DNA from: Bacteroidales bacterium
GTDB lineage: Bacteria > Bacteroidota > Bacteroidia > Bacteroidales > VadinHA17
Assembly: GCA_025455505.1 (NCBI GenBank)
Contig: JALOMK010000024.1
Span: forward strand, 1-12,723
Reading direction: 5' to 3'
Length of the DNA: 12,723 nt
In this document: in pieces, positions 1-12,723 of the stretch
Layout: every line of letters starts with the position of its first letter
How positions within the stretch are numbered: position 1 is the first letter of the stretch
Program-made: the position numbers and the translations under genes
The notes under the pieces: generated by a model
Told to the model about the DNA's origin: nothing
The model's database searches: none
What the model saw: only the letters and a program-made list of their open reading frames with translations

Positions 1-60
1 GACGAGTTGTATTGCGCGGGCAAGAATCAAAACATGAGCCCCAAAATTATCTGCAGCCTC

Positions 61-76
61 TCCGCCAGCCGGCGGA
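61..76. repeat. 16-bp hairpin palindrome, copy 1
   Basis: The sequence TCCGCC-AGCC-GGCGGA forms a 6-bp GC-rich stem with a 4-nt loop. With one flanking base on each side, 18 bp (60-77) are identical to 3985-4002. It lies in the non-coding stretch beyond the queA stop and 4 bp from the larger hairpin at 81-114. Identity and symmetry are seen directly. That it is a dispersed genomic repeat is inferred from two copies in one window. Confidence 0.85.
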
Positions 77-80
77 TTTG

Positions 81-114
81 GTTACTTTCTTTGTGTCAGG
101 ACAAAGAAAGTAAC
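81..114. repeat. 34-bp hairpin (13-bp perfect stem) downstream of queA
   Basis: GTTACTTTCTTTG (81-93) and CAAAGAAAGTAAC (102-114) are exact reverse complements around an 8-nt loop. The hairpin starts 7 nt past the queA stop on the minus strand, so it could end or protect the 3' end of the queA operon transcript. No T-run follows it on that strand, so it is not a textbook intrinsic terminator. Together with the 16-bp palindrome at 61-76 it forms a 54-bp two-hairpin block. The rest of the 1-121 stretch shows nothing recognisable. Confidence 0.8.
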
Positions 115-121
115 AGTCTCA

Positions 122-1171
122 CTATACAATTAACATTGCATCCCCGTAAGTCCCGAACCTGTACTTCTCCTTGACAGCCACCTTATATGCCTCGAAAAGC
201 AGATCGTAACCCGCAAAGGCCGACACCATCATGAGAAGCGTTGAATAAGGCAAATGGAAATTGCTTATCATCATGTCGGGAACCTTGAACTCATACGGCG
301 GGAATATAAACTTGTTCGTCCATCCGTCATAGGGCTTCAGGTAACCGTCAGTCGACACTGAACTCTCAACAGTCCTGACGACAGTCGTGCCAACCGCGCA
401 GATCCTGTGCTTGTTCTCCTTGGCCTGGTTCACAATCTGAACACACTCGTCAGTAATTTTAATCCGCTCAGAATCGACTTTGTGCTTTGTGAGATCCTCA
501 ACATCCACGCTGCGGAAATTGCCAAGCCCCACATGAAGCGTGATCTCGGCGAAGTCAACTCCTATTATCTCGAGTTTCTTAAGCAGCTCCCTGCTGAAAT
601 GAAGCCCGGCAGTCGGCGCCGCAACAGCCCCTTCATGCTTTGCAAAAATCGTCTGGTAACGCTCGCTGTCCTCCGGCTCAACTTTCCTGTTAATGAACTT
701 TGGCAGCGGTGTCTCGCCCAAAACATAAAGCGTCTGCTTGAACTCCTCATAGGTGCCGTCAAAGAGAAACCTGAGGGTCCTGCCCCTCGAGGTCGTGTTG
801 TCAATGACCTCCGCAACAAGAAGGTCATCCTCCCCGAAATACAGCTTATTCCCTATCCTTATCTTCCTGGCCGGATCCACAAGCACGTCCCACAAACGCT
901 GCTCCCTGTTCAACTCACGCAGAAGAAATACCTCAATCTCAGCTCCCGTCTTCTCCTTGTTTCCATAAAGCCTTGCCGGGAATACTTTTGTATTATTGAA
1001 GATCAATACATCATGCTCGCTGAAATATTCAGTAATCTCCTTGAAAACCCTGTGCTGCAACTCCCCTGTCTTCCTGTCAACGACAAGAAGCCTCGACTCA
1101 TCCCTGTTGGCAGAAGGATATAAAGCAATCAACTCCTGGGGCAGATTGTACCTGAACTTCGATAATTTCAT
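122..1171 (-). CDS. queA: S-adenosylmethionine:tRNA ribosyltransferase-isomerase (QueA)
   Basis: QueA moves the ribosyl group of S-adenosylmethionine onto 7-aminomethyl-7-deazaguanine in tRNA, giving epoxyqueuosine at wobble position 34. It is a cytoplasmic enzyme of queuosine synthesis. The 349-residue protein has the family length and begins with the typical MKLSxFxYNLPxELIA. Family blocks in order include [40 protein letters not shown], and near the C-terminus [19 protein letters not shown] and [11 protein letters not shown]. It ends with TAG and is the last gene of the leftward run, 45 bp after truB. No promoter of its own is visible in that gap, so it is probably co-transcribed with truB. 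A two-hairpin block follows its stop. The identification is secure. Confidence 0.97.
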
Positions 1172-1216
1172 AGATTTATATGGTCCAATTTAAATTTAAG
1201 AAATCCTTTATACGCA

Positions 1217-1933
1217 CTAATATCCGTTTTGTTTCATTTGTTCAATGAAATTTTCAAATTTTTCGAGGTTATAAGCTTCACTGACTCTTAATGAGCCTAT
1301 TGCAGTCCGCTCGAGAGCCGATAAATAACAGCCGCTTCCCAGCGCCTTCCCAAGGTCATGCGCAAAAGTCCGTATATATGTCCCCTTGCTGCACACTATC
1401 CTTACCCTAATCTCAGGCATTCTGAACGAAAGAAGCTCCATTTCCCTGAATACAACACTCACAGGCTTGATCTCACGTTCAATACCCTTCCTTGCAAACT
1501 CGTAAGAGCGTTTGCCGTCAATCTGTTTGGCAGAATATGCCGGGGGTACCTGCATCTGTTCGCCTAGGAAACTTTCGAGCGCCTTAATTACAAGCTCCTC
1601 CGTGATGTGATCAGTGGGATATGCAGCATCTGTTTCTGTTTCCAGATCATAGGAGGGAGTTGTGGCCCCCGCCTTTATTGTCGCAACATATTCCTTGTCA
1701 AGATCCCTGAAGCTGTCAATCTTTTTCGTAGCCCTGCCCGTGCAAATTATCATAAGACCTGATGCAAGCGGATCGAGCGTGCCAGCATGACCTACCTTTA
1801 TTTTCTTAATGCCGAAAGCCGACCTTATCATTATCCTGACCTTGTTCACGAGATCGAACGACGTCCAGTAGAGGGGCTTGTCAAAGAGCAGCACCTGCCC
1901 CTCCTCAAAATATGAAAGCTTCTCAGAAGACAT
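1217..1933 (-). CDS. truB: tRNA pseudouridine(55) synthase TruB
   Basis: TruB isomerises U55 to pseudouridine in the T-loop of most tRNAs. The catalytic aspartate is visible as D54 in VGHAGTLDPLASGL, and the later SKGTYIRTFAHDLG block is the conserved core of the TruB fold. At 238 residues it is shorter than the roughly 310-residue E. coli enzyme: it stops soon after the catalytic domain and lacks the C-terminal extension, a short form I associate with Bacteroidota. Its ATG overlaps the end of uppP by 11 bp, which suggests translational coupling. queA follows 45 bp downstream, so two tRNA-modification genes sit side by side. Confidence 0.97.
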   Translation of the reverse strand: MSSEKLSYFEEGQVLLFDKPLYWTSFDLVNKVRIMIRSAFGIKKIKVGHAGTLDPLASGLMIICTGRATKKIDSFRDLDKEYVATIKAGATTPSYDLETETDAAYPTDHITEELVIKALESFLGEQMQVPPAYSAKQIDGKRSYEFARKGIEREIKPVSVVFREMELLSFRMPEIRVRIVCSKGTYIRTFAHDLGKALGSGCYLSALERTAIGSLRVSEAYNLEKFENFIEQMKQNGY

Positions 1934-2714
1934 TCAGTCCGAGCAGAAGCGTGAATATGCCGGCAAGACCAACGTACACTGCAAACCAGAGCAGGTTGCC
2001 CTTCCTTACAATGCTTATCATCCACCTGCATGCGATATATCCCGAAACAAAGGCTGTTACAAAACCTGCAGCAATTACGGCAAGCGAGGTCCCTTCCCTC
2101 GAAAAATCACCCGAACGCAGCTCGACAAGATTGGCCCCGATAATCGGAACCAGCACCATCAGGAAGGAAAATTTCGCTATGTCAGCCTTCCTGTTCCCGA
2201 GCATCATCCCGGTTGCTATTGTCGCTCCCGAACGCGATATCCCGGGAAGTATGGCAAGAACCTGGGCAAGGCCTATAATGAAAGAATCCCGGTAGCTTAT
2301 CGGTCTTTCCTTCGGACGGATCCAGAGCGTCATTAAAAGGAAAAGTGCAGAAACAAGGAATTCAAAACCCAGCGATATCATATTCCCGGTAAAAAAGCGT
2401 TCGGCTATCTCCTTCAGGAAAAGGCCGGCTATGGCGACGGGTATCATCGAAACTATAAGCTTAAGGATGTAGACCGTTTCCTCGTTGAGCCGGAACCGGA
2501 AAGCACCTTTCAGAAGATCCCATATCTCCTTGTGCAGCGCTGCAAGGGTACTAAGCACCGTTGCACCGTGAACAGCTATCGAGAAATAGAAATTGGCCTC
2601 ATGGTCGATGCCAAAGAGGTACTTACCCAGTTCAAGATGCCCGGAGCTGCTCACAGGCAGAAACTCGGTGAGACCCTGGATCAAACCAAGTATTATGGCT
2701 TCAAGAAAATTCAT
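1923..2714 (-). CDS. uppP: undecaprenyl-diphosphatase UppP (BacA family)
   Basis: UppP is a polytopic membrane enzyme that removes a phosphate from undecaprenyl diphosphate. This regenerates the lipid carrier for peptidoglycan and surface glycans, and high dosage gives bacitracin resistance. The 263-residue protein has the family length and both signature regions: GLTEFLPVSSSGHL at residues 15-27 (Glu17, Ser22-24, His26) and LPGISRSGATIATGMMLG around 156-173 (Arg161). About eight hydrophobic segments fill the rest. The start MNFLEAIILGLIQG matches the family N-terminus. It overlaps truB by 11 bp, and a 78-bp gap with a 9-bp tandem duplication separates it from the DUF3098 gene upstream. The identification is secure. 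Confidence 0.97.
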   Translation of the reverse strand: MNFLEAIILGLIQGLTEFLPVSSSGHLELGKYLFGIDHEANFYFSIAVHGATVLSTLAALHKEIWDLLKGAFRFRLNEETVYILKLIVSMIPVAIAGLFLKEIAERFFTGNMISLGFEFLVSALFLLMTLWIRPKERPISYRDSFIIGLAQVLAILPGISRSGATIATGMMLGNRKADIAKFSFLMVLVPIIGANLVELRSGDFSREGTSLAVIAAGFVTAFVSGYIACRWMISIVRKGNLLWFAVYVGLAGIFTLLLGLNVF

Positions 2715-2750
2715 GTTCAGTGAAAGTATATAAGAAGTGAGCTGGAGTTG

Positions 2751-2768
2751 GGAGTGACTGGAGTGACT
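2751..2768. repeat. 9-bp tandem duplication in the uppP leader
   Basis: GGAGTGACT occurs twice head to tail (2751-2759, 2760-2768). A related GGAGTTG lies just before it at 2744-2750. It sits in the 78-bp gap upstream of uppP, 36 bp before its ATG, in an otherwise compact gene run. The repeat is seen directly; any regulatory role is unknown. Confidence 0.75.
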
Positions 2769-2792
2769 AAAATTGGAAAGCCAAACGCCACT

Positions 2793-3047
2793 CTACTGTT
2801 TTGGTTTTCTCATTATGGCCCAGATCTCGAAAATGAATCCGCCCAGGACTACAAGGGGGGCCAGCGTTATCCTGCGGAAGCTGAAGATGTCCTCGCTGAA
2901 CTTGTCGGGACTCTCAGATTTGCCTCCGAGCATCAGGAGGAAGCCGGCAACTATTATAAGAAATCCGATTCCAAGAAGCCTGTAATTCTCACGGGGAAGC
3001 GCAAAGCCTGTATTTTCTCCCTTCTCCTTTTCTTTTTTCGTACTCAT
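2793..3047 (-). CDS. DUF3098 family small membrane protein
   Basis: This 84-residue protein has a charged, Lys-rich N-terminus (MSTKKEKEKGE), then FALPRENYRLLGIGFLIIVA leading into a first membrane helix (about 24-41). A loop follows, with GGKSESPDKF and DIFSFRRITLAPLVVL, then a second helix (about 61-78) and a basic end (MRKPKQ). The layout and the FSFRRITLAP block match DUF3098, a Bacteroidota family of unknown function. The gene starts 4 bp after ftsX ends and precedes uppP. That order is consistent with a cell-envelope or division role, but this is inferred from neighbours only. No catalytic residues are evident. Confidence 0.9.
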   Translation of the reverse strand: MSTKKEKEKGENTGFALPRENYRLLGIGFLIIVAGFLLMLGGKSESPDKFSEDIFSFRRITLAPLVVLGGFIFEIWAIMRKPKQ

Positions 3048-3051
3048 CGTG

Positions 3052-3939
3052 TCAGTTGTATAATTTATCTTCTGGTATTGAAAGATACCTGTTAACGGAA
3101 AAATATGTCGAAACTATATTTATGAGGATGCCAATTACTATCAGAAACACTCCGAGAAGGATAAGCAGCCTTGTGCTCTCAAGCGTGAACATCCTGAAAA
3201 ATTCCTTTTCAATGAGATAGAGAAGCCCCATCAGCAGCACCATCGAGATAAGGGCCGCGATCAGCCCGTGAAAGGCACTCTGAACGAGGAAAGGCCTGCG
3301 TATGAAGGCCCTGGTTGCGCCAACAAGCTGCATTGTCCTTATAAGGAAGCGCCTCGAATAAATGGCAAGCCTGATAGTGTTGTTTATTATTGTAAGAGCT
3401 ATCAGAAGCAGGAAGGAGCTTATCACGAGGAGGAACAGGCTTATCTTGTTCACATTCTCGTTAATAAGAAAGAGCAGTGATTCCTGGTAATAAACTTCCT
3501 TCACGAAGGGGTATTCCGACACGTATTTCTCTATCTTAACAACACTGTCAGGCCTTGTATAACCTGCATACAGGTAAACATCTATCGAAGGCGGCAGGGG
3601 GTTGTCGCCGATAAAGCTGATAAAGTCCTCCCCGAGATCTTCCTTCATCTTGGCCGCAGCGTCCTCTTTCGATACGTATTCCGTGGACTTTACGTAGGGC
3701 TTGGCATCAAGATCCTTCTGAAGCATTCTTATGTCGGCCTCCCTTGCATTGTCATCGAGCATCACCGAAAATGAAAGGCTCTCCCTGAAATAGTCTGAAA
3801 GAGTTTTTGCATTTATAAGGACAAGCCCCAGTATCCCAAGAAGGAAAAGCACAAGCGAGACGCTTATTACAAGTGTCAGGTAGGAGCTTTTCAAGCGTGT
3901 TCCGGAGTATTCTGAAGCCTTGGTTTTCATCATTTTCAT
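3052..3939 (-). CDS. ftsX: FtsX-type cell-division permease
   Basis: FtsX is the membrane partner of the ATPase FtsE and controls peptidoglycan hydrolases at the division site. The 295-residue protein shows one N-terminal helix (about 20-42), a periplasmic domain (about 43-165) with the typical SVMLDDNA and PLPPSIDVYL segments, and three C-terminal helices (about 166-188, 224-243, 257-278). The cytoplasmic loop RRFLIRTMQLVGATRAFIRRP is the FtsX family signature. No ftsE lies in this window. The ATG at 3939 is followed by in-frame ATGs at codons 3 and 4; with no clear ribosome-binding site, any of the three may be used. A tandem repeat array reaches within a few bases of the start. DUF3098 follows 4 bp downstream. 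Confidence 0.93.
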   Translation of the reverse strand: MKMMKTKASEYSGTRLKSSYLTLVISVSLVLFLLGILGLVLINAKTLSDYFRESLSFSVMLDDNAREADIRMLQKDLDAKPYVKSTEYVSKEDAAAKMKEDLGEDFISFIGDNPLPPSIDVYLYAGYTRPDSVVKIEKYVSEYPFVKEVYYQESLLFLINENVNKISLFLLVISSFLLLIALTIINNTIRLAIYSRRFLIRTMQLVGATRAFIRRPFLVQSAFHGLIAALISMVLLMGLLYLIEKEFFRMFTLESTRLLILLGVFLIVIGILINIVSTYFSVNRYLSIPEDKLYN

Positions 3940-3944
3940 AGTCC

Positions 3945-4016
3945 TGCGGTCTTGCGGTCTTGGGTCTTGGGTCTTGCGGTCTTGCTCCGCCAGCCGGCGG
4001 ATGCGGTCTTGCAGTC
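3945..4016. repeat. short-period tandem array upstream of ftsX
   Basis: On the plus strand the array has units TGCGGTCT at 3945, 3953, 3975 and 4002, two 7-bp variants TGGGTCT at 3961 and 3968, and a degenerate last unit TGCAGTC at 4010-4016. It fills nearly all of the 86-bp gap between ilvE and ftsX, and on the minus strand it ends 5 bp before the ftsX ATG. It is interrupted by the hairpin palindrome at 3986-4001. Such arrays can change copy number by slippage; whether this one affects ftsX expression is inference. Confidence 0.85.
3986..4001. repeat. 16-bp hairpin palindrome, copy 2, inside the tandem array
   Basis: TCCGCC-AGCC-GGCGGA is identical to 61-76. Here it is flanked on both sides by TGC (3983-3985 and 4002-4004). 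Removing the palindrome and one TGC restores an unbroken 8-bp period across the array, which is the footprint expected of an insertion with a 3-bp target duplication. Copy 1 has no matching flanks, so the mechanism stays open. Confidence 0.85.
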
Positions 4017-4025
4017 GTTAACAAA

Positions 4026-5042
4026 CTAGAGTATGCTTACCCAGCCAAAGGTGTCTTCCTCGTCGCCGCACTGCAGCGCCGTAAGCTTGTTGTAAAGCTT
4101 CATAGTCAGCGGTCCCGGCTGCCCGTCCCTGCAATATTCGTATATTATGTTATTTTCAGGATCAACTATCTTCCTTATCGGGCTTATGACAGCTGCCGTA
4201 CCGCAGGCCCCGGCCTCCTCAAACATACCGAGCTCCTCAACAGGCACCTGCCTGCGCTCGGTCTTCATGCCAAGGCTCGCAGCAATGTCGAGAAGACTCA
4301 TATTTGTTATTGAGTTCAATATCGACTCCGACTTCGGTGTTACGTAGGTATTGTCCCTTATCCCGAAAAAGTTAGCCGGACCGCACTCATCAATATACTT
4401 TTTCTCCCTTGCATCGAGGAAGATTGTATTGGCGTACCCGCCGTCGCGGGCTGCAATAATTGCCCTCATGCTGGCCGCATAGTTGCCGCCGACCTTGTAT
4501 ATACCTGTTCCCTTCGGAGCAGCCCTGTCGATATCGCGGCATATCAGCATGTCAACAGGCTTCACCCCTCCCTTGAAATATGGACCTACAGGGGTCACAA
4601 ACACTAAAAACGTATATTCCGATGCCGGCTTCACTCCCACCTCGGCACCGCTTCCGTATAATAGCGGGCGTATGTAAAGTGAGGCCCCTGACCCGTATGG
4701 CGGGACAAAGCGCCTGTTGAGTTCAACAACCTTGTAAAGAGCCTCCCTGAAAAGTTCATAGGGAAAGGGAGCCATTATTATACCTCCAGCAGAGAGAATA
4801 AGCCTCTTTGCATTCTCTTCCCAGCGGAAAAGCCTCACCCTGCCGTCTTTTCCCATGTAGGCCTTGAGACCTTCAAAGGCCTCCTGCCCGTAATGAAGCC
4901 CGGTTGCAGCTATATGAATATCAATGTATTCCGAAGAGGAAATTTCAAGTTCACCCCATTTGCCGTTCCTGTAATGACATCGGACATTATAGTCTGTCTT
5001 CATGTATCCGAAGGGCAGGTTTTTCCAGTCAGGAGCTTCCAT
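4026..5042 (-). CDS. ilvE: branched-chain amino acid aminotransferase (class IV PLP)
   Basis: IlvE transfers amino groups between glutamate and the 2-oxo acids of leucine, isoleucine and valine, using pyridoxal phosphate in the cytoplasm. The likely PLP-binding lysine is K183 in TGIYKVGGNYAAS, and Glu219 lies in YIDECGPANFFGI, the family pattern. ATGLHYGQEAFEGLKAY and YIRPLLYGSG are further branched-chain aminotransferase blocks. I start at the ATG at 5042 (MEAPDWKNLPFG, 338 residues). The frame can be read 6 bp further only from a TTG at 5048. The length fits the roughly 340-residue eukaryote-like branch better than the 300-residue E. coli type. It heads the leftward run, but the repeat-filled 86-bp gap before ftsX leaves co-transcription uncertain. 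Confidence 0.93.
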   Translation of the reverse strand: MEAPDWKNLPFGYMKTDYNVRCHYRNGKWGELEISSSEYIDIHIAATGLHYGQEAFEGLKAYMGKDGRVRLFRWEENAKRLILSAGGIIMAPFPYELFREALYKVVELNRRFVPPYGSGASLYIRPLLYGSGAEVGVKPASEYTFLVFVTPVGPYFKGGVKPVDMLICRDIDRAAPKGTGIYKVGGNYAASMRAIIAARDGGYANTIFLDAREKKYIDECGPANFFGIRDNTYVTPKSESILNSITNMSLLDIAASLGMKTERRQVPVEELGMFEEAGACGTAAVISPIRKIVDPENNIIYEYCRDGQPGPLTMKLYNKLTALQCGDEEDTFGWVSIL

Positions 5043-5118
5043 ATTCAAAAGGTAATTTTTACAGCGGGTAAAAGTACATTTTTCTTACCTATCCCTGAAG
5101 CATTTGAAGCGAATTCTG

Positions 5119-6561
5119 CTATGATTCATATACGGACAGGGCTTTGACCTGTTCTTCCGCAGGCACGCTCCTTAGCATTTTTGCCGTGTCGGTGAGGAAA
5201 TCGTGCTCCGCAAGGAATTTCCTTTGTATCTCAAGCCAGGCTTTCCTGTCGCACTTCCACCCGAACTCGGACATTTCCCTGAACAGTCTGTCGGTAAGGC
5301 GAATGTAATCTACCCTGCCAAGGTAATCATAAAGTGAGTCGTGCAATATCCTGTCGGAGAGTGAATAATACCTGTCGGTAAATGAATTTTCTATCAGCTG
5401 CCTGGCAGCCTCAACATTAGCGGCAGAAAAGCCAAACTCGGGCAGTTTCTTCTCAAGAAGGATAAGCGCGCCGTCCATGGGTTTTGAATAGTCCGAAACA
5501 TAACCTGCCAGCAGGAACACGGCAGCGCTCTTCAGGTTCACGAGATCCTCCTCCGGCAGCTGTTGGGCCGTTGCCAGAAGGTCGACCTGGTTGCAGATAT
5601 TCCTTACAAGCGATGCATTGTGAAAATACAGGCTGGGCGGGGCATCTTCCTCGAACATCCTTATGACCATCTCCTCAAGATCGAGAATCCTGAGAAGCCT
5701 CATCCTCGTCAGGAACTTTTCATTCGGAGAGCCGTCGGGACCACAGAGGTCGGGCTTTATCCCCTGTACAAAATACATCTCGAGGTCGCCCTTGTATTTC
5801 ACAGGCATCCTTCCCCTGTACTCTGCATCGAAGAAGTCCTTCACAAACTCGTATGTCGTGCCTGATATGTTGATCTTTCCACCTTCACCCGAGGATTCCA
5901 TCCTGCTTGCAATGTTAACCGTGTCGCCCCAGATGTCGAAGGAAAGCTTTTTCTGTCCGACAACCCCGGCCACAACCGGCCCTGTATGAATACCTATCCT
6001 GATGTCCCAGTATTTCATCCCCTCAAGTATGGAACTTTCCTTGAGTCCCGACATGTAAGTGCGCATCTCGAGCGCCGCCAGTATCACCTCGACAGGATTT
6101 GTCCTGTTTTTCCCGGGAATACCGCCCGCACACATATAGGCATCGCCGATAGTCTTAATCTTTTCAATTCCGTACTTTTCAACAACTGAATCGAAGTGGA
6201 AGAAAAACTTGTCGAGTTCATCAATAAGCACCTCGGGGTTCATCTCCTCGGCAATCTTGGTGAAGCCCTGTATATCGGAAAAAAGAACAGTAACAAAATT
6301 GTACTTGGCCTTTGCCGCCTTTCCCTTGGCCATGATCTCTCCTGCAGTGATCTTAGGCAGAAAATTGGCAAGCAGAGCCTCCCGTTTCTCTCTTTCAGCC
6401 GCCAGGTCATCGCTCTTCCTCAGTACAAGCTGCTCAAGCTTCCCTATCTTCCCTTTTTGCCGCGCTACTATGAATGCCGCAATAAGTGCAAGCAGCAACG
6501 GCGGCACGAACAGCAGTACCAGCAGAATTGAATCGGGCAGGGAATGAATGAATTGCGACAT
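5119..6561 (-). CDS. membrane-anchored class III adenylate cyclase with degenerate HD-like domain (cyclase A)
   Basis: Predicted to make cAMP from ATP at the inner membrane. From the ATG at 6561 (480 residues): one membrane helix (about 11-33), a coiled-coil signalling helix ending in LLANFLPKITAGEI, a cyclase domain (about 88-270), and a C-terminal domain (about 300-465). The catalytic set is complete: metal Asp96 (FSDIQGFT) and Asp140 (KTIGDAYM), adenine-selecting Lys136 and Asp209 (FDIWGDTVN), Asn216 and Arg220. The C-terminal domain aligns with the HD domain of cyclase B, but HD has become Leu350-Leu351 (AAVFLLAGY) and other ligands are lost; His314 (YFHN) and Asp408 remain. The longer frame from 6648 is rejected because it would leave 5 bp to divergent rdgB and cover a good promoter. 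The HD-like part may be regulatory. Confidence 0.88.
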   Translation of the reverse strand: MSQFIHSLPDSILLVLLFVPPLLLALIAAFIVARQKGKIGKLEQLVLRKSDDLAAEREKREALLANFLPKITAGEIMAKGKAAKAKYNFVTVLFSDIQGFTKIAEEMNPEVLIDELDKFFFHFDSVVEKYGIEKIKTIGDAYMCAGGIPGKNRTNPVEVILAALEMRTYMSGLKESSILEGMKYWDIRIGIHTGPVVAGVVGQKKLSFDIWGDTVNIASRMESSGEGGKINISGTTYEFVKDFFDAEYRGRMPVKYKGDLEMYFVQGIKPDLCGPDGSPNEKFLTRMRLLRILDLEEMVIRMFEEDAPPSLYFHNASLVRNICNQVDLLATAQQLPEEDLVNLKSAAVFLLAGYVSDYSKPMDGALILLEKKLPEFGFSAANVEAARQLIENSFTDRYYSLSDRILHDSLYDYLGRVDYIRLTDRLFREMSEFGWKCDRKAWLEIQRKFLAEHDFLTDTAKMLRSVPAEEQVKALSVYES

Positions 6562-6579
6562 GACGCGGCAAATATTACC

Positions 6580-6610
6580 CAAATGTAGCATTAATAAGGG
6601 AGCGATCAAA
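6580..6610 (-). promoter_or_regulatory. Bacteroidota-type promoter for cyclase A
   Basis: On the minus strand TTTG (6610-6607), 19 nt, then TACATTTG (6587-6580) match the -33 TTTG and -7 TAnnTTTG elements of the primary Bacteroidota sigma factor, with usual spacing. Transcription would begin near 6573-6576, giving a leader of about 13 nt to the ATG at 6561. The match also supports that start codon over the one at 6648. Confidence 0.7.
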
Positions 6611-6629
6611 AGGTATGCCCAATTTTGAC

Positions 6630-6637
6630 TACTTTTG
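6630..6637 (+). promoter_or_regulatory. possible -7 element for rdgB
   Basis: TACTTTTG fits TAnnTTTG and lies 17 bp before the rdgB ATG in the divergent 92-bp gap, but no TTTG is seen at the right distance upstream. This is half of a promoter only. Confidence 0.3.
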
Positions 6638-6653
6638 CAGCTTTGCATAAAGG

Positions 6654-7253
6654 ATGATCAAACTTATATTCGCATCGGCAAATGAACACAAGATCAGGGA
6701 GATAGGCAGCATCCTGGGCTCTTCCTTCAGCCTCGGAAGCCTGAGCGATGCCGGCATTACCGAAGACATCCCCGAGAATGAAGACACACTCGAGGGAAAT
6801 GCACTTTCAAAGGCAAGGTATGTGCACAGGCTCACCGGCATGAATGTCTTTGCCGACGATACAGGGCTCGAAGTGACTGCCCTCGGAGGAGCCCCCGGCG
6901 TACATTCGGCCCGCTTCGCCGGAGAGGCCAAAAATCCATCAGACAACATTGATAAGCTGTTATCACTGCTTGGCAATACCTCAAACAGGAAAGCCCGCTT
7001 CAGAACAGTGATAGCTCTTATACTCGATGGCCGCGAACACCTTTTTGAGGGTGTGGCAGAAGGCCGGATTATAAATGAAAAAAGAGGCAGCGAGGGCTTC
7101 GGCTACGATCCTGTATTTGTGCCCGAGGGCCATGAACTTACATTTGCAGAAATGAGCCTCGCCCTGAAGAATACAATATCGCACAGGGCTCGGGCCTTTG
7201 AGGCCCTGCGGCTATTCCTGGCCCGAAGGGAAGCCAAGAACAATAAAGAATAA
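6654..7253 (+). CDS. rdgB: XTP/dITP pyrophosphatase (RdgB/HAM1 family)
   Basis: RdgB hydrolyses non-canonical purine triphosphates (XTP, dITP, ITP) to monophosphates plus pyrophosphate, keeping deaminated bases out of DNA and RNA. The 199-residue protein has the family length and its motifs in order: FASANEHKIREI (7-17), DTLEGNALSKA (44-54), FADDTGLEVTALGGAPGVHS (66-85, with Asp68/Asp69), GFGYDPVF (148-155) and ISHRARA (175-181). The start ATG at 6654 gives the standard N-terminus MIKLIFASAN. It is divergent from cyclase A across 92 bp and co-directional with porZ, whose ATG lies 19 bp after the rdgB stop, so the two are probably one transcript. The identification is secure. Confidence 0.97.
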   Translation: MIKLIFASANEHKIREIGSILGSSFSLGSLSDAGITEDIPENEDTLEGNALSKARYVHRLTGMNVFADDTGLEVTALGGAPGVHSARFAGEAKNPSDNIDKLLSLLGNTSNRKARFRTVIALILDGREHLFEGVAEGRIINEKRGSEGFGYDPVFVPEGHELTFAEMSLALKNTISHRARAFEALRLFLARREAKNNKE

Positions 7254-7272
7254 GTTTGTCTGTTTAACCTGT

Positions 7273-9558
7273 ATGGCAAGATTCCTGTTCCTGCTCATAC
7301 TGACCCTGGTGTCCGCCGCCGCCAGCCCTCAGACTCCTGTGGGATCCTGGAGCGACCATCTCATGTACGGCAGCGCATTATCGCTGGCTGCAGGCAGCGA
7401 CGAGATCTACTCTTCAACAGGATCTTCAATACTTATCTATGACAAGGAATACGCCGAACTGAAGAAACTCTCTGAGATAAACGGCCTTTCGGAGACCGGA
7501 ATAAGCACAATAGGATGGTCTCCGGAACAAAAAACACTTGTAATCGCCTATACAAATACAAATATCGACTTCGTCAGCAGTAATTCAGTTGCAAACGTTC
7601 CCGATATCATGATGAAATACATCCCGGGGAACAAGGTTATAAACAGGGTCAGGTGCAGCGGCAAATATGCTTATCTTGCCAGCAGCTTCGGGATAGTCGT
7701 GCTCGACATTGCAAAAAAGGAAGTTTACGACACATGGAAGCCCGGATCTTCATCGGACCTGCCGGAGGTTTATGATGTCGCCTTCGGCAACGGAATCATT
7801 TATGCAGCTACAGACGAAGGTGTATTCAGGGCCGACATTTCCGATCCCGGGCTTGCCTACTTCGGGAACTGGACAAGGATCAACAGCCTGGCCCAGCCTT
7901 CGGGAAAATTCACAGCCGCAATAGTATCAGGCGATAAGCTTTATGTCAACTATATTGATGCGAGTGCAGGTGGCGACCTCGTTTACCAGGTCGGCGCCTC
8001 AACAATCCTATTCTCCTATGTCCCCGGGATCTTCAATTTATCATTCGAGAATACAGCCAGCGGTTTCTCAATCACTTCCCCTGACAGGGTAAGGGAATAC
8101 GGAATCAACGGGTCGCTTGTCAGAACGGTAAGCACCTATGGATGGGGCACCCCTGATATTTCGCAGGCCCTGATCAGTGACGGGGATATCTGGATAGCCG
8201 ACCGAAGCGCAGGTCTTGTAAGAGGCAGGAACTTTTCTGAATTCATCGCTCTCACAATCCCCGGTCCCGCATCGAACACCGGCTTCAGCATCAGGTCTTC
8301 CGGCGGAAAAACAATGATCTGCGCCGGGGCTGTTAGCTCTTCGTGGAACAACCTTGGCATTCCCCTGAAAGTCTCCGTCTTCGAGGGTAATGAATGGAAC
8401 AATATCTCATCTTCCTCATATATTGACGCCATGAGGGCCCATAGCCTCAGCAGGGAGAATAACCGGATGTACGTAACCACATGGGGCTACGGATTGCTCG
8501 AATACCGCGACAATATCCTCGTAAAGCAGTACAATGAATCCAATTCTCCCCTGCAGTCGATCATCCCCGGAAGCCCCTTCTCGAGGATCTGCGGAATTGC
8601 AGAAGACAGCAAGGGGAACATCTGGATAACACAGACAGGTGTCCCCGGAAGCATCAAGGCACTTAAACCTGACGGAAGCTGGATTGTCAACCCTGTAACT
8701 ATAGACGCACCAACAATAGGCGACATTATAATAACATCGAGGGGACATAAATGGGTTGTACTTCCCCGCGGATACGGGATCTTTGTCCTTGACGACAGGA
8801 ATACTCCTGAAAATGCATCTGACGACAGGATCAGGAAGATGCTTGTGAAGGACAGCGAAAACCAGGTGATTTCAATGGTATATTCTCTCACGGAGGATCT
8901 CGAAGGGGCCATATGGGTTGGGACCGACCAGGGTCCTCTCGTCTATTACAACCCCGGGGAGGTATTTGAAGGGGACCCAAGGGCAAGCAGGCCAAAAGTG
9001 CCCAGGAACGACGGCACCGACATATATGATTACCTGCTTAAGGAAGAAACTGTAACGGCAATAGCGGTTGACGGGGCAAACAGGAAATGGATAGGTACGG
9101 CCGGATCGGGTGCCTATCTTGTGTCGGCTGACGGCAGCCAGCTTATTCACAGCTTCAACGACAGGAACAGCCCCATATTCTCATCATCGGTGGGAAGCCT
9201 TGCAATCGACGAAAAAAGCGGCGATGTCTGGTTCGGGACATCCGAAGGCATTGTATCATACCGGGGACTTGCAACCAAAGGAGGAGAAGAGTTCGGGAAA
9301 GTTTATTCTTTCCCCAACCCTGTCAGGGAGGATTATGAAGGCAATGTTACAATAACCGGGCTCATGCGCGACACCCAGGTAAGGATAACCGATGTCAGCG
9401 GCAACCTTGTATACAGGACTGTATCAAAAGGAGGACAGGCGGAATGGGACCTTAAAACATACAACGGAAAAAGGGTTGCAACGGGTGTATATATTGTTTT
9501 CTGTGCAAGCGCCGACGGATCGCAGGCCGTGGCAACAAAGCTGCTTGTAATAAACTGA
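7273..9558 (+). CDS. porZ: type IX secretion protein PorZ (beta-propeller, sorting domain)
   Basis: PorZ belongs to the cell-surface attachment complex (with PorU, PorV, PorQ) of the type IX secretion system and, in Porphyromonas, delivers anionic LPS to the sortase PorU. Evidence: a signal peptide (MARFLFLLILTLVSAAAS), then the PorZ-like start VGSWSDHLMYGSALSLA, YDKEYAELKKLSEINGLSE and LASSFGIVVLDIAKKEVYDT. Propeller strands follow (DIWIADRSAGL, GNIWITQTG, GAIWVGTDQGPLVYY, NRKWIGTAGSGAYL, GDVWFGTSEGIVSY). A Por-type C-terminal sorting domain occupies about 677-761 (YSFPNPVREDYEG to ATGVYIVF). The 761-residue length fits PorZ. The frame continues upstream to a TTG at 7198, but only the ATG at 7273 puts the signal peptide first. 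It converges with cyclase B with 4 bp between stops. A generic propeller protein is the alternative. Confidence 0.85.
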   Translation: MARFLFLLILTLVSAAASPQTPVGSWSDHLMYGSALSLAAGSDEIYSSTGSSILIYDKEYAELKKLSEINGLSETGISTIGWSPEQKTLVIAYTNTNIDFVSSNSVANVPDIMMKYIPGNKVINRVRCSGKYAYLASSFGIVVLDIAKKEVYDTWKPGSSSDLPEVYDVAFGNGIIYAATDEGVFRADISDPGLAYFGNWTRINSLAQPSGKFTAAIVSGDKLYVNYIDASAGGDLVYQVGASTILFSYVPGIFNLSFENTASGFSITSPDRVREYGINGSLVRTVSTYGWGTPDISQALISDGDIWIADRSAGLVRGRNFSEFIALTIPGPASNTGFSIRSSGGKTMICAGAVSSSWNNLGIPLKVSVFEGNEWNNISSSSYIDAMRAHSLSRENNRMYVTTWGYGLLEYRDNILVKQYNESNSPLQSIIPGSPFSRICGIAEDSKGNIWITQTGVPGSIKALKPDGSWIVNPVTIDAPTIGDIIITSRGHKWVVLPRGYGIFVLDDRNTPENASDDRIRKMLVKDSENQVISMVYSLTEDLEGAIWVGTDQGPLVYYNPGEVFEGDPRASRPKVPRNDGTDIYDYLLKEETVTAIAVDGANRKWIGTAGSGAYLVSADGSQLIHSFNDRNSPIFSSSVGSLAIDEKSGDVWFGTSEGIVSYRGLATKGGEEFGKVYSFPNPVREDYEGNVTITGLMRDTQVRITDVSGNLVYRTVSKGGQAEWDLKTYNGKRVATGVYIVFCASADGSQAVATKLLVIN

Positions 9559-9562
9559 AATA

Positions 9563-10945
9563 TCACTCGCTTATAAGGCTCCTGATTCTTTCAATCTGCA
9601 GCCTCTTATTCACTTCCCGCAAGCGCCGCGCCGTCTTCGTGAAATACTGGTGCCCTGAAATGAACTTCACCTGCAGCTTGTTCCAGTCGTTTATCGAACT
9701 CATCTTATCAAGGGCTTTAAGTTCTTCATACAGTGTGTTCGAAACCGGGATGAAATCGCTGCGGCCAAGGTAATCGAGATCAGAATCGCACATAATGCTT
9801 TCGAGCAGATCGTTCGGCTTCGGCGGAAGCTTCGTTGACATAATGAGTGAGCATATCCTTTCAATCTGCTCAGCCGTGTAACCAAATGCCGGAAGCATTT
9901 CACGTGCAAGTACGGTTCCCTGCATCTCGTGCCCGTCGTAGGAAACCGTATGGCCCGCATCGTGAAACAGCGCCGCCGTCTTGAGAAGCAGGATCTCCTC
10001 ATCGGAACAGCCTTCGGCCCATCCTATAAGCTCAACCTCGGTGACAACATCCACTGTATGCTTTACATTATGATAGTAAAGATGTTGCGGCAACTCCTTT
10101 TCAAGCTTGTCAAGGATCAGCTCCTGGATGTCGGTGAACTGGATAAGCCCGAACTTTATCCTGAAATTGCCATTAGGCACCAGCCCCCTGCCATCTTCAG
10201 AGAATTCGGGCTTCAGACCCTTCACGGCATAGAGCTGAAGGTCGCCCTTGTATTTCACAGGCAGCTTTCCTGCATATTCGCAGTCGAAGAACTCCTTGAC
10301 AAGCTCATATGTCATAACGCTTATCAGGATGTTTCCATTTTCAGCTACCGCCTCTATCCTGCTGGCTGTATTTACAGTGTCGCCCTTAATGTCGTAACTT
10401 ATCTTTTTCTTGCCCGAAACCGATGCAGTAACAGGCCCCGTGTGAATGCCGGTCTTAAGCTCCCAGATGCGTTTGCCGGGCCCCCGTCTGGACGCTTCAA
10501 AATCCTCAAGGAAGTTCCGCATTTCAATTGCGGCCATAACAACCTCAACAGGATTTGTGATGTTCTTCACCGGAATCCCCCCGGCAGCCATCCATGTGTC
10601 ACCGACAGTCTTAATCTTCTCTATTTTGTATAATGAAGCCGTTTTGCCGAACTCAAAGAGTATCTCGTCAAGTTCATCCATAAGAGCTGAGGAGTCTGTA
10701 TCATCTGCCATTCTTGTAAACCCGTGAATGTCAGCGAAGAGCACCGTGGCCATATTGAATTTCAGGGAATGATCGCGAGTCAGATGAGCGCTTCCCTTCT
10801 CGCTTTCCTGCCTGAGCCTTTCATTCTCGGCAGCAAGCTTTTCATTCAGTTTCCCGAGACTTCGCAGCTGCTCCTCCAGCTCCTGGTTCTGCCTTGCCAG
10901 GCGGGCAATGCGTTTAACAAGCTCGTCGTTGCTAATAAGCGTCAT
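9563..10945 (-). CDS. class III adenylate cyclase with intact HD phosphohydrolase domain (cyclase B)
   Basis: Predicted soluble, possibly bifunctional enzyme of 460 residues. Order: N-terminal coiled coil (about 8-50), cyclase domain (about 62-245), HD domain (about 285-395), basic helical tail. Cyclase residues are complete: metal Asp72 (FADIHGFT) and Asp116 (KTVGDTWM), adenine-selecting Lys112 and Asp185 (YDIKGDTVN), Asn192 and Arg196. HD ligands also look complete: His292/His296 (YYHNVKHT), His328-Asp329 (AALFHDAGH), His339-Glu340 and Asp387/389/391 (MCDSDLDYLG). The cyclase should make cAMP; the HD domain should hydrolyse a phosphoester whose identity cannot be read here. It is paralogous to cyclase A along the shared cyclase and HD parts. 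It has no membrane helix. It is divergent from recO, with an inverted repeat in the gap, and convergent with porZ. Confidence 0.9.
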   Translation of the reverse strand: MTLISNDELVKRIARLARQNQELEEQLRSLGKLNEKLAAENERLRQESEKGSAHLTRDHSLKFNMATVLFADIHGFTRMADDTDSSALMDELDEILFEFGKTASLYKIEKIKTVGDTWMAAGGIPVKNITNPVEVVMAAIEMRNFLEDFEASRRGPGKRIWELKTGIHTGPVTASVSGKKKISYDIKGDTVNTASRIEAVAENGNILISVMTYELVKEFFDCEYAGKLPVKYKGDLQLYAVKGLKPEFSEDGRGLVPNGNFRIKFGLIQFTDIQELILDKLEKELPQHLYYHNVKHTVDVVTEVELIGWAEGCSDEEILLLKTAALFHDAGHTVSYDGHEMQGTVLAREMLPAFGYTAEQIERICSLIMSTKLPPKPNDLLESIMCDSDLDYLGRSDFIPVSNTLYEELKALDKMSSINDWNKLQVKFISGHQYFTKTARRLREVNKRLQIERIRSLISE

Positions 10946-10960
10946 CGTAGGGCTCTTTGA

Positions 10961-10985
10961 ACCGTAAATATAATAATTTTACGGT
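10961..10985. promoter_or_regulatory. inverted repeat in the cyclase B/recO divergent gap (candidate operator)
   Basis: ACCGTAAA (10961-10968) and TTTACGGT (10978-10985) are perfect reverse complements around 9 AT-rich bases, a 25-bp dyad. It lies in the centre of the 60-bp region from which cyclase B and recO diverge, where both promoters must be if they are close. It resembles a binding site for a dimeric regulator. It does not match the TGTGA-N6-TCACA consensus of E. coli CRP. I found no complete TTTG/TAnnTTTG promoter here on either strand. Confidence 0.5.
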
Positions 10986-11005
10986 GTAATTAAGGGTCTC
11001 CCGCA

Positions 11006-11734
11006 ATGCTCGAAAAGACAAGGGCCATAGTGCTTCACCAGGTGAAATATACCGATTCGGGTATAATAGCCCAGCTCTATACAAGAAAATTCGGCAGGCA
11101 GTCGTTCATTGTCAGGGGTCTGAGGAACAAAAAAGCAGGCAAACACAGCATCCTCTTCCAGCCAATGTTCATACTCGACCTCGAGATGTACTACAGGCAT
11201 ACAAGGGAGGTGCAGTCGCTGAAGGAATTCGCCGTGGCCTTCACGCCCTACAATGTTTTTACAGATATAAGGAAAAGCTGCGTGGCAATTTTCCTCGGGG
11301 AAGTGCTGACTTCAGTCCTGAGGGAGGAAAGTCCGCATGAGGAGCTCTTTGACTTCCTCGAGGAAGCTATAAAATGGTTCGACGCTTCGAAGGAGGATTT
11401 TGCAAACTTCCATATCGGATTCCTGGCAGGACTGAGCAGCTACCTCGGATTTGAGCCCGGTCGGAAAAACAGCAGCGAAGAAGCATACTTTGACATGATG
11501 AATGGAGGCTTCGTAATGGTGCCTCCCCTGCATGGCATCTACGCCGGCACCGAAATATCGGAGGTACTTGCAAAGGTCTTCAGCTCCTCATATGAGACGA
11601 TAGGCAGTATACCTCTTAACGGAAGGCTTAGAAATGAGATCCTCGACACTCTCATAAGGTATTATTCCCTTCATCTTCCCGGTCTGAAACGCTTCAACTC
11701 GCTCGAAGTGCTGAAGGAGGTGTTCAGTTTTTGA
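11006..11734 (+). CDS. recO: DNA repair/recombination mediator RecO
   Basis: RecO works with RecR (and RecF) to load RecA onto SSB-coated single-stranded DNA in gap repair and anneals complementary strands. The 242-residue protein opens with the OB-fold pattern of the family: MLEKTRAIVLHQVKYTDSG, IAQLYTRKFGRQSFIVRGLR and a LFQPMFILDLEM strand. The helical C-terminal domain follows, with SYLGFEPGR and YFDMMNGGFV. It has no C4 zinc-finger cysteines at the place where many RecO proteins carry them. The start ATG at 11006 gives the standard N-terminus. It is divergent from cyclase B across 60 bp and followed 27 bp later by the GH3-family gene in the same direction, which suggests co-transcription. 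Confidence 0.93.
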   Translation: MLEKTRAIVLHQVKYTDSGIIAQLYTRKFGRQSFIVRGLRNKKAGKHSILFQPMFILDLEMYYRHTREVQSLKEFAVAFTPYNVFTDIRKSCVAIFLGEVLTSVLREESPHEELFDFLEEAIKWFDASKEDFANFHIGFLAGLSSYLGFEPGRKNSSEEAYFDMMNGGFVMVPPLHGIYAGTEISEVLAKVFSSSYETIGSIPLNGRLRNEILDTLIRYYSLHLPGLKRFNSLEVLKEVFSF

Positions 11735-11761
11735 TTATATTCGTGGCATAGGTCACCGCAA

Positions 11762-12723
11762 ATGAATTTTATCCCGGGCATAATAAACTGGCTTAATTCC
11801 GGCCGTGCCGAACAGATAGACCTGTTCCGGAAAAACCCGCTTGCTGTGCAGGAGAAGACTTTTAAATCGCTTATCGAGAAAGCCGCACTTACCGAGTGGG
11901 GCACGAAATATGGATATTCATCTGTAAAATCCCTTGGCGATTACCAGGAGAGAGTCCCGGTGCATACATACGACGACATGATCCCCTGGGTTGACAGGAT
12001 CAGGAACGGCGAAAACAACCTGCTGTGGCCGGGAGAAATTAAATGGTTTGCAAAATCCTCCGGAACAACGGCATCGAAAAGCAAGTTCATTCCAATGAGC
12101 CGCGAGGCACTTGAGGATTGCCACTATCGGGCCGCAAAGGACATCATTCTGCTTTACCTCCGGAACAGGCCTGATTCAAAGTTGCTCTCAGGCAAGGGCC
12201 TGACACTGGGGGGCAGCCACAAAATAAACAAGTTCAGCAACAGTTCGCTGTACGGCGACCTCTCGGCCATTCTTCTCGAGAATGCGCCGTTCTGGTCGGA
12301 ACTCATCAAAACACCGAAGAAGGAGATTGCCCTTCTCGAGGACTTCGAGGAGAAGCTGGCAATGATAACCCGAACATGCATTAATGAGAATGTCACCAGC
12401 ATGTCGGGAGTCCCGTCCTGGTACCTTGTTCTTATCAAACAGATACTTGAATATACCGGCAAGACCAACCTCCTGGATGTATGGCCTAACCTAGAGGTTT
12501 TTTTCCACGGCGGAATCAGCTTCACTCCTTACAGGGAACAGTACAGGAAGCTTATTGCAGGCGACCAGATGCAGTACATGGAGACATACAATGCCTCGGA
12601 AGGCTTCTTTGGCATGCAGGATGAGCAGTCGGACACCAGCATGCTGCTTATGCCTGATTACGGAATTTTCTATGAATTCATTCCGGCCGAACAGGCCGCC
12701 AGGGAAACGGCAGCCGCCCTCCC
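11762..12723 (+). CDS. GH3-family acyl-adenylating enzyme (5' part, cut by window end)
   Basis: GH3 proteins form an acyl-adenylate with ATP and, in plants, join acids such as jasmonate or auxin to amino acids. Bacterial members are common but their substrates are mostly unknown. The visible 320 codons include the ATP-binding loop SSGTTASKSKFIP (99-111), VTSMSGVPSWYLVLIKQILE (211-230), the HGGISFTPY strand, and ETYNASEGFFG (274-284), equivalent to the second ATP motif. Bacterial homologues usually run to about 500 residues, so about a third lies past the edge. The ATG at 11762 follows recO by 27 bp. Plant-type auxin conjugation should not be assumed from the family name. Confidence 0.9.
   Translation, partial: MNFIPGIINWLNSGRAEQIDLFRKNPLAVQEKTFKSLIEKAALTEWGTKYGYSSVKSLGDYQERVPVHTYDDMIPWVDRIRNGENNLLWPGEIKWFAKSSGTTASKSKFIPMSREALEDCHYRAAKDIILLYLRNRPDSKLLSGKGLTLGGSHKINKFSNSSLYGDLSAILLENAPFWSELIKTPKKEIALLEDFEEKLAMITRTCINENVTSMSGVPSWYLVLIKQILEYTGKTNLLDVWPNLEVFFHGGISFTPYREQYRKLIAGDQMQYMETYNASEGFFGMQDEQSDTSMLLMPDYGIFYEFIPAEQAARETAAAL

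Follow-up and report, generated by a model that had tools for sequence, protein, structure and literature searches.

Why should one bacterial genome keep two related cyclase proteins, each fused to an HD-type domain, when one of them has lost the metal site of that domain? The question is raised by a 12,723-nucleotide stretch of DNA from a Bacteroidales bacterium of the VadinHA17 lineage (GenBank assembly GCA_025455505.1, contig JALOMK010000024.1, positions 1 to 12,723 of the forward strand; the whole stretch is hereafter called the window), which encodes the two proteins, A and B. The best reading of the sequences is that A and B are an old pair between which synthesis and hydrolysis appear to be in the course of being divided reciprocally. 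We consider it probable that this is a division of labour resembling that of RelA and SpoT, here for a cyclic mononucleotide, most likely cyclic AMP (cAMP). The proposal is based on common descent, kept and lost residues, predicted folds, the reciprocal pattern of decay and relative constraint; what A and B do, on which substrate and under what regulation, and whether they touch, is inferred from these.

A pair of cyclase-HD paralogs, one with a lost metal site

Gene A (5119..6648, minus strand) encodes 509 residues from its first start. Both genes, called as open reading frames (ORFs), lie where a preliminary description of this DNA had placed them, except that the start it gave for A, 6561, is an internal ATG at residue 30, the first start being 6648. 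The product is a predicted membrane-anchored class III cyclase with a C-terminal pseudo-HD domain: a hydrophobic stretch at residues ~40-62 (6463..6531, minus strand; read by eye) is a putative transmembrane helix, followed by the cyclase domain (5764..6309, minus strand) and the pseudo-HD domain (5122..5733, minus strand). Gene B (9563..10945, minus strand) encodes a predicted soluble protein of 460 residues, with a class III cyclase domain (10220..10759, minus strand) and an intact C-terminal HD domain resembling class I phosphodiesterases (PDEs) (9566..10177, minus strand). Both proteins belong to the class III cyclases by the Pfam cut-off (Guanylate_cyc, 184.4 bits and 2e-54 for A, 129 bits and 2e-37 for B; cut-off 21.9), while the Pfam HD model matched B at 7.9e-07 and gave no match in window A even at an E-value of 1.

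BLASTP aligned A with B over 441 residues at 39% identity (325 bits), spanning both domains, and this full-length alignment bears out the paralogy proposed earlier along the cyclase and C-terminal domains. Six cyclase positions were scored, namely two metal Asp, a Lys, a base Asp, an Asn and an Arg, which we take to be the catalytic and base-selecting residues; both A and B read DKDDNR, all six being kept as previously described, and cyclase activity and base specificity are predicted from these residues for both proteins. The motifs quoted in the preliminary description were all found (YYHNVKHT, FHDAGH, DGHE and CDSDLDYLG in B; YFHNASLV, FLLAGY and HDSLYDYLG in A), as was the absence of HE from A, where KPM stands at the position of GHE in B.

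The metal positions of the HD domain are presumably H296, H328, D329 and D387 (B numbering), an assignment not drawn from a solved complex. B carries this H...HD...D set together with the HD profile. The corresponding residues in A are L347, L379, L380 and D437, so that the set is broken in A at three of its four ligand positions. In addition, H339-E340 of B is P-M in A and D389 is L439, and A retains H343 beside D437. The positions of H296, H328 and D329 were replaced in 121/121 A rows (window A and the 120 listed of 7,999 matches) and retained in 121/121 B rows (window B and the 120 listed of 6,174 matches, of which P0121 and P0122 are identical or almost identical to window B), and because of this complete separation the contrast is not one of chance; D387 is kept in A and B rows alike. 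The earlier view of an intact HD in B and of a pseudo-domain in A whose hydrolase metal site is lost is upheld. AlphaFold2 predicts an HD fold for the pseudo-HD of A (pLDDT, the predicted local distance difference test, 95.5), and the C-terminal domains of A and B share the same predicted fold rather than the unrelated folds that had been named as a sign against common origin, each model having been superposed on the same PDB chains and not directly on the other.

Reciprocal decay across the order

A cyclase was scored as lost when either metal Asp, the Asn or the Arg was changed, and an HD when any of its four positions was changed. All 85 B-type proteins of the order retained an intact HD, and 37 of them had lost the cyclase, with the first metal Asp changed in 32, the second in 1, the Asn or Arg in 7 and both halves of the site in 3. 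Some B-type proteins scored as intact carry base-selecting changes (in L183, L185, L188 and L217 the Lys and the base Asp are both replaced by Arg). Among A-type proteins, 79 had an HD region; the HD was lost in 40 of them, both domains were intact in 30, the cyclase was lost in 6 and the HD was unreadable in 3. Loss of both cyclase and HD was found in none of these 85 B-type and 79 A-type proteins. It was likewise absent (0/101) from a named set of 101 rows, which includes both window proteins and overlaps in species with the order-wide set, and in which B-type proteins were intact in 47 rows, without the cyclase in 27 and gapped in 1, and A-type proteins had lost the HD in 20, were intact in 5 and had lost the cyclase in 1. 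Relatives of B with a naturally replaced first metal Asp occur in cultured species too, for example Alkaliflexus imshenetskii and Geofilum rubicundum.

The pattern extends to A and B of the same genome. Among 59 such pairings, 28 combined a lost HD in A with an intact B, which is the state of the window, 11 a lost HD in A with a lost cyclase in B, and 14 an intact A with a lost cyclase in B; the remainder had both proteins intact (3), the cyclase of A lost beside an intact B (1) or the HD of A unreadable (2). Every one of the 59 keeps at least one cyclase site and at least one HD site. By parsimony the minimum was 4 changes of HD state in 89 A rows (on the cyclase tree) and 13 changes of cyclase state in 85 B rows (on the HD tree), and because these events are fewer than the rows no p-value is claimed for reciprocal loss. 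A possible effect of a partner fusing adenylate cyclase and HD (AC-HD) on the cyclase of B was considered: the counts were 21/29 against 8/23 rows, but with only four independent pairs. As read from these residues, decay is reciprocal, and the mirror-image cyclase loss in B-type proteins had been overlooked in the preliminary description.

Under the proposed division of labour, the ancestor of A and B would have been a single AC-HD protein that both made and hydrolysed a cyclic mononucleotide (cAMP being the most likely), and after duplication its copies would divide the two tasks much as RelA and SpoT do. A would be the membrane-anchored cyclase, having lost the HD metal site and retained a folded pseudo-hydrolase that probably passes signals to the cyclase or holds the dimer. 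B would be soluble, with its HD acting as a class I-like PDE, and its cyclase, intact in the window, would be the less constrained half, the catalytic residues of which are gone in many relatives. A wider version is put forward only tentatively: a widespread bacterial cAMP system whose ancestral cyclase-PDE was duplicated and then underwent reciprocal degeneration on more than one occasion, A using its dead hydrolase to switch its cyclase, and B its dead cyclase to sense ATP or cAMP and switch the PDE, possibly in an A-B complex.

Selective constraint and alternative explanations

Pairwise comparison of 29 genomes of the genus gave mean identities of 87.8% for the A cyclase, 57.4% for the A pseudo-HD, 77.3% for the B cyclase and 85.0% for the B HD; the pseudo-HD was less conserved than the B HD in 406/406 genome pairs, and the A cyclase more conserved than the B cyclase in 398/406. 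Median ratios of nonsynonymous to synonymous divergence (dN/dS) were 0.026, 0.106, 0.063 and 0.040 in the same order, from simple Nei-Gojobori counts on the 11 close pairs out of 406 (7 genomes, the pairs being non-independent) in which all four dS values were usable, with a range of 0.087-0.127 for the pseudo-HD. It is the least constrained of the four domains, yet it is under purifying selection, since its dN/dS is ~0.1. We therefore think it unlikely that the pseudo-HD is a mere relic, unnecessary after the duplication and drifting without function: as that view would expect, it evolves fastest of the four domains and some A-type cyclases lack any HD (a nested clade of seven in a quick tree), but the low dN/dS, the steady tail of 206-218 residues after the cyclase in seven further pseudo-HD proteins from other genera, and 21 columns with the same residue in at least 95% of both A and B of the 29 genomes (including the H and N of the first motif) argue against it. 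The low dN/dS and the unchanging length speak for some function of the pseudo-HD, which may be regulatory.

It seems to us rather unlikely that the HD of B has some other nucleotide as its substrate, as, for instance, a YpgQ-like nucleoside triphosphate pyrophosphatase or a hydrolase of guanosine tetraphosphate (ppGpp) would. The HD is predicted to fold like PDE10A when its model is compared with solved structures, but YpgQ scores equally well, by sequence the closest solved structure is the unassigned HD hydrolase 2pq7, and the PDEase_I profile gave only 18.9 bits on the HD of window B against a Pfam cut-off of 24.8; a cyclic nucleotide is favoured by the 30 of 78 relatives that match PDEase_I at the YHNxxH motif, by fusions of this HD to cyclases in both orders, by cyclase genes as neighbours and by fusions to PycTM. 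That A and B together form an obligate heterodimeric cyclase on the mammalian C1/C2 scheme, with A giving the metal Asp pair, B the Asn/Arg side and the HD of B attached, is improbable. It would account for the first metal Asp being lost from decaying B cyclases far more often (32/85) than the Asn or Arg (7/85), but A alone has every residue, four members of the genus lost only or also the Asn, and of the 37 decayed B cyclases three have lost both halves, about the number expected by chance (33 x 7 / 85 = 2.7). An avoidance of double loss in the B cyclase, considered as a sign of a C1/C2 arrangement, was accordingly rejected.

Distribution and history in the order

The HD of B was matched in 142 of 247 genomes of the order, its own included, and each of 51 B-bearing genomes had at least two cyclase matches. 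The architectures found include soluble AC-HD proteins of ~460-500 residues, HD-only proteins of ~195 residues and ~1,200-residue sensors ending in AC-HD (Reg_prop, Y_Y_Y, cyclase and HD in L085; Y_Y_Y and cyclase in L101), with a shortened Y_Y_Y form of ~617 residues in L012. Pfam found no Y_Y_Y in window A. Set side by side, the A-type sensors shrink stepwise from propeller and Y_Y_Y (L085) to Y_Y_Y (L012) to the membrane segment alone of the 509-residue window protein.

Types were assigned from the position preceding GDTVN, where A has W or Y and B has K, R or S. In a quick cyclase tree with an arbitrary root, the A side held 70 rows (Shimodaira-Hasegawa-like approximate likelihood ratio test, SH-aLRT, 93) and the main B side 42 (97); seven W-type rows formed a separate clade (99), and L093, L106, L117, L119, L120 and L121 fell near the root. 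The residue rule is imperfect, L106 and L121 carrying the residue of B yet adjoining ilvE as A does; L244, L251, L252, L254 and L255 resemble them, and all of these keep both domains.

The earlier account of a duplication, after which one copy gained or kept an anchor and lost its hydrolase, stands in part. A and B are paralogs, but each type is spread over many families of the order, which rules out a recent duplication within the genus of the window. The anchor was kept rather than gained, as A-type relatives with intact HD include ~1,200-residue sensors such as L085, and a membrane sensor seems to have been the ancestral form of A. The HD site was indeed lost in one copy, but only after the A/B split, among A-type proteins of several families. 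The HD of the sister genus G246 is half-decayed, with LYD for FHD and the first metal His kept, a residue also retained in L183, L188 and L192, and within family f38 the four HD positions are kept in G072 and lost in G183. Eight A-type proteins with intact HD (L065, L068, L070, L077, L081, L084, L088 and L105) differ only in the base-selecting Asp, replaced by Gly, Thr, Val or Ile, and perhaps use a different nucleotide.

Genomic setting

Between A and B lie rdgB/HAM1 (6654-7253, plus strand) and porZ (7198-9558, plus strand), encoding the type IX secretion system protein PorZ (NCBIfam, 2.5e-181), both conserved neighbours outside the proposed mechanism; the neighbours of the cyclases in the window are ilvE, rdgB, porZ and recO. 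The host assembly is 69% complete, and a search with A gave matches in 44 of 60 relatives, its own genome included. The genes run GH3/recO, B, porZ, rdgB, A at 26 of the loci fetched, including that of G246 (two genomes are counted twice, as L095/L200 and L132/L196), with recO adjoining B in 26/26 and ilvE following A in 23/26, some contigs breaking off. Outside the family of the window, rdgB or ilvE was within reach in 25 of 39 A-type loci and both in 4, often limited by the length of the stretch fetched, and the B-type loci read were mostly without either gene; because of this difference, A probably marks the older site, which B joined in the family of the window. An apparent second copy of B in genome G002 was rejected as assembly redundancy, the two ORFs being identical at 400/402 positions.

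The HD family also occurs in other settings. Of seven stand-alone HD genes fetched (L107-L113), four lie behind a cyclase gene in the same orientation; such genes, of ~195 residues and 3' of a class III cyclase gene, were seen in L107, L109, L111, L112 and L313. In other Bacteroidota the HD is joined to the Pycsar effector domain PycTM in proteins of ~400 residues (4/4 tested; L305:932-2104, L308:1323-2528, L309:1439-2662 and L310:1317-2615, minus strand), and many more of the HD matches from the phylum-wide search lie in open frames of about this length. A reverse fusion, with the HD first and then a divergent cyclase, lies at L099:3832-5376, and fusions to a YitT membrane protein with DUF2179 at L100:2042-3556 and L315:4186-5640. 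The HD also ends long TPR proteins (L317:4105-6741 and L318:1887-4460), the N-termini of which look TIR-like by eye and gave no match to Pfam TIR; a cyclase gene lies near the one in L317.

Relation to known systems and significance

Long RelA/SpoT homologs (RSH; Rel, RelA and SpoT) resemble A and B, so far as their available descriptions go, in uniting a synthetase and an HD hydrolase in one protein that has been duplicated, one copy having a dead HD. RelA has an inactive HD, SpoT is mostly bifunctional and division is complete in Moraxellaceae, where the synthetase is lost (available part of PMC3153485); the other copy, bifunctional or without synthetase, parallels B. By this analogy most of the genus of the window would stand at the first RSH-like stage and families such as f8 (G042, G159 and G257) at the second. 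The dead hydrolase domain of RelA is reported to control its synthetase (PMC8012599, in the part available), and is the best precedent for the pseudo-HD of A. Unlike RSH proteins, A and B have a class III cyclase, presumably making cAMP and not ppGpp, with the HD after rather than before the synthetic domain, and A is membrane-anchored. No RSH synthetase was matched in A or B by Pfam or NCBIfam, and RelA/SpoT serves as an analogy.

GGDEF-EAL tandems, as partly available accounts present them, likewise set making and breaking domains for one messenger against each other, one often dead, but their messenger is cyclic di-GMP and their hydrolase fold is unrelated to HD. The Pycsar cyclase PycC is class III kin (PADLOC PycC models, 9.3e-18 for A and 7.5e-08 for B), and PycTM is fused to relatives of the HD of B as described above; the window pair differs in its conserved housekeeping neighbourhood, and a Pycsar identity was rejected, no effector gene being recognised among the window genes (ilvE, rdgB, porZ and recO). 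To our knowledge, HD-type cyclic nucleotide phosphodiesterases are otherwise known mainly from eukaryotes. The available part of PMC8115329 also places class I PDEs in eukaryotes and describes CAPE, in which plants and stramenopiles fuse a class I PDE with a class III cyclase; like AC-HD it unites the two in one protein, and unlike AC-HD it is eukaryotic, with the PDE first, the cyclase last and both sites reported intact, and no pair with reciprocal decay appears in that part of the paper. In the open-access papers searched, we found neither bacterial AC-HD fusions nor the reciprocal decay described, subscription papers and preprints lying outside that scope.

If the proposed division of labour holds, these proteins would be a family for cAMP synthesis and hydrolysis that is common in this order of Bacteroidota and has so far been overlooked. 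They would also provide, beside RelA and SpoT, a second natural experiment on how a two-way enzyme is split and why a dead domain is retained, and one in which half-decayed intermediates are extant, so that the order of decay can be traced.
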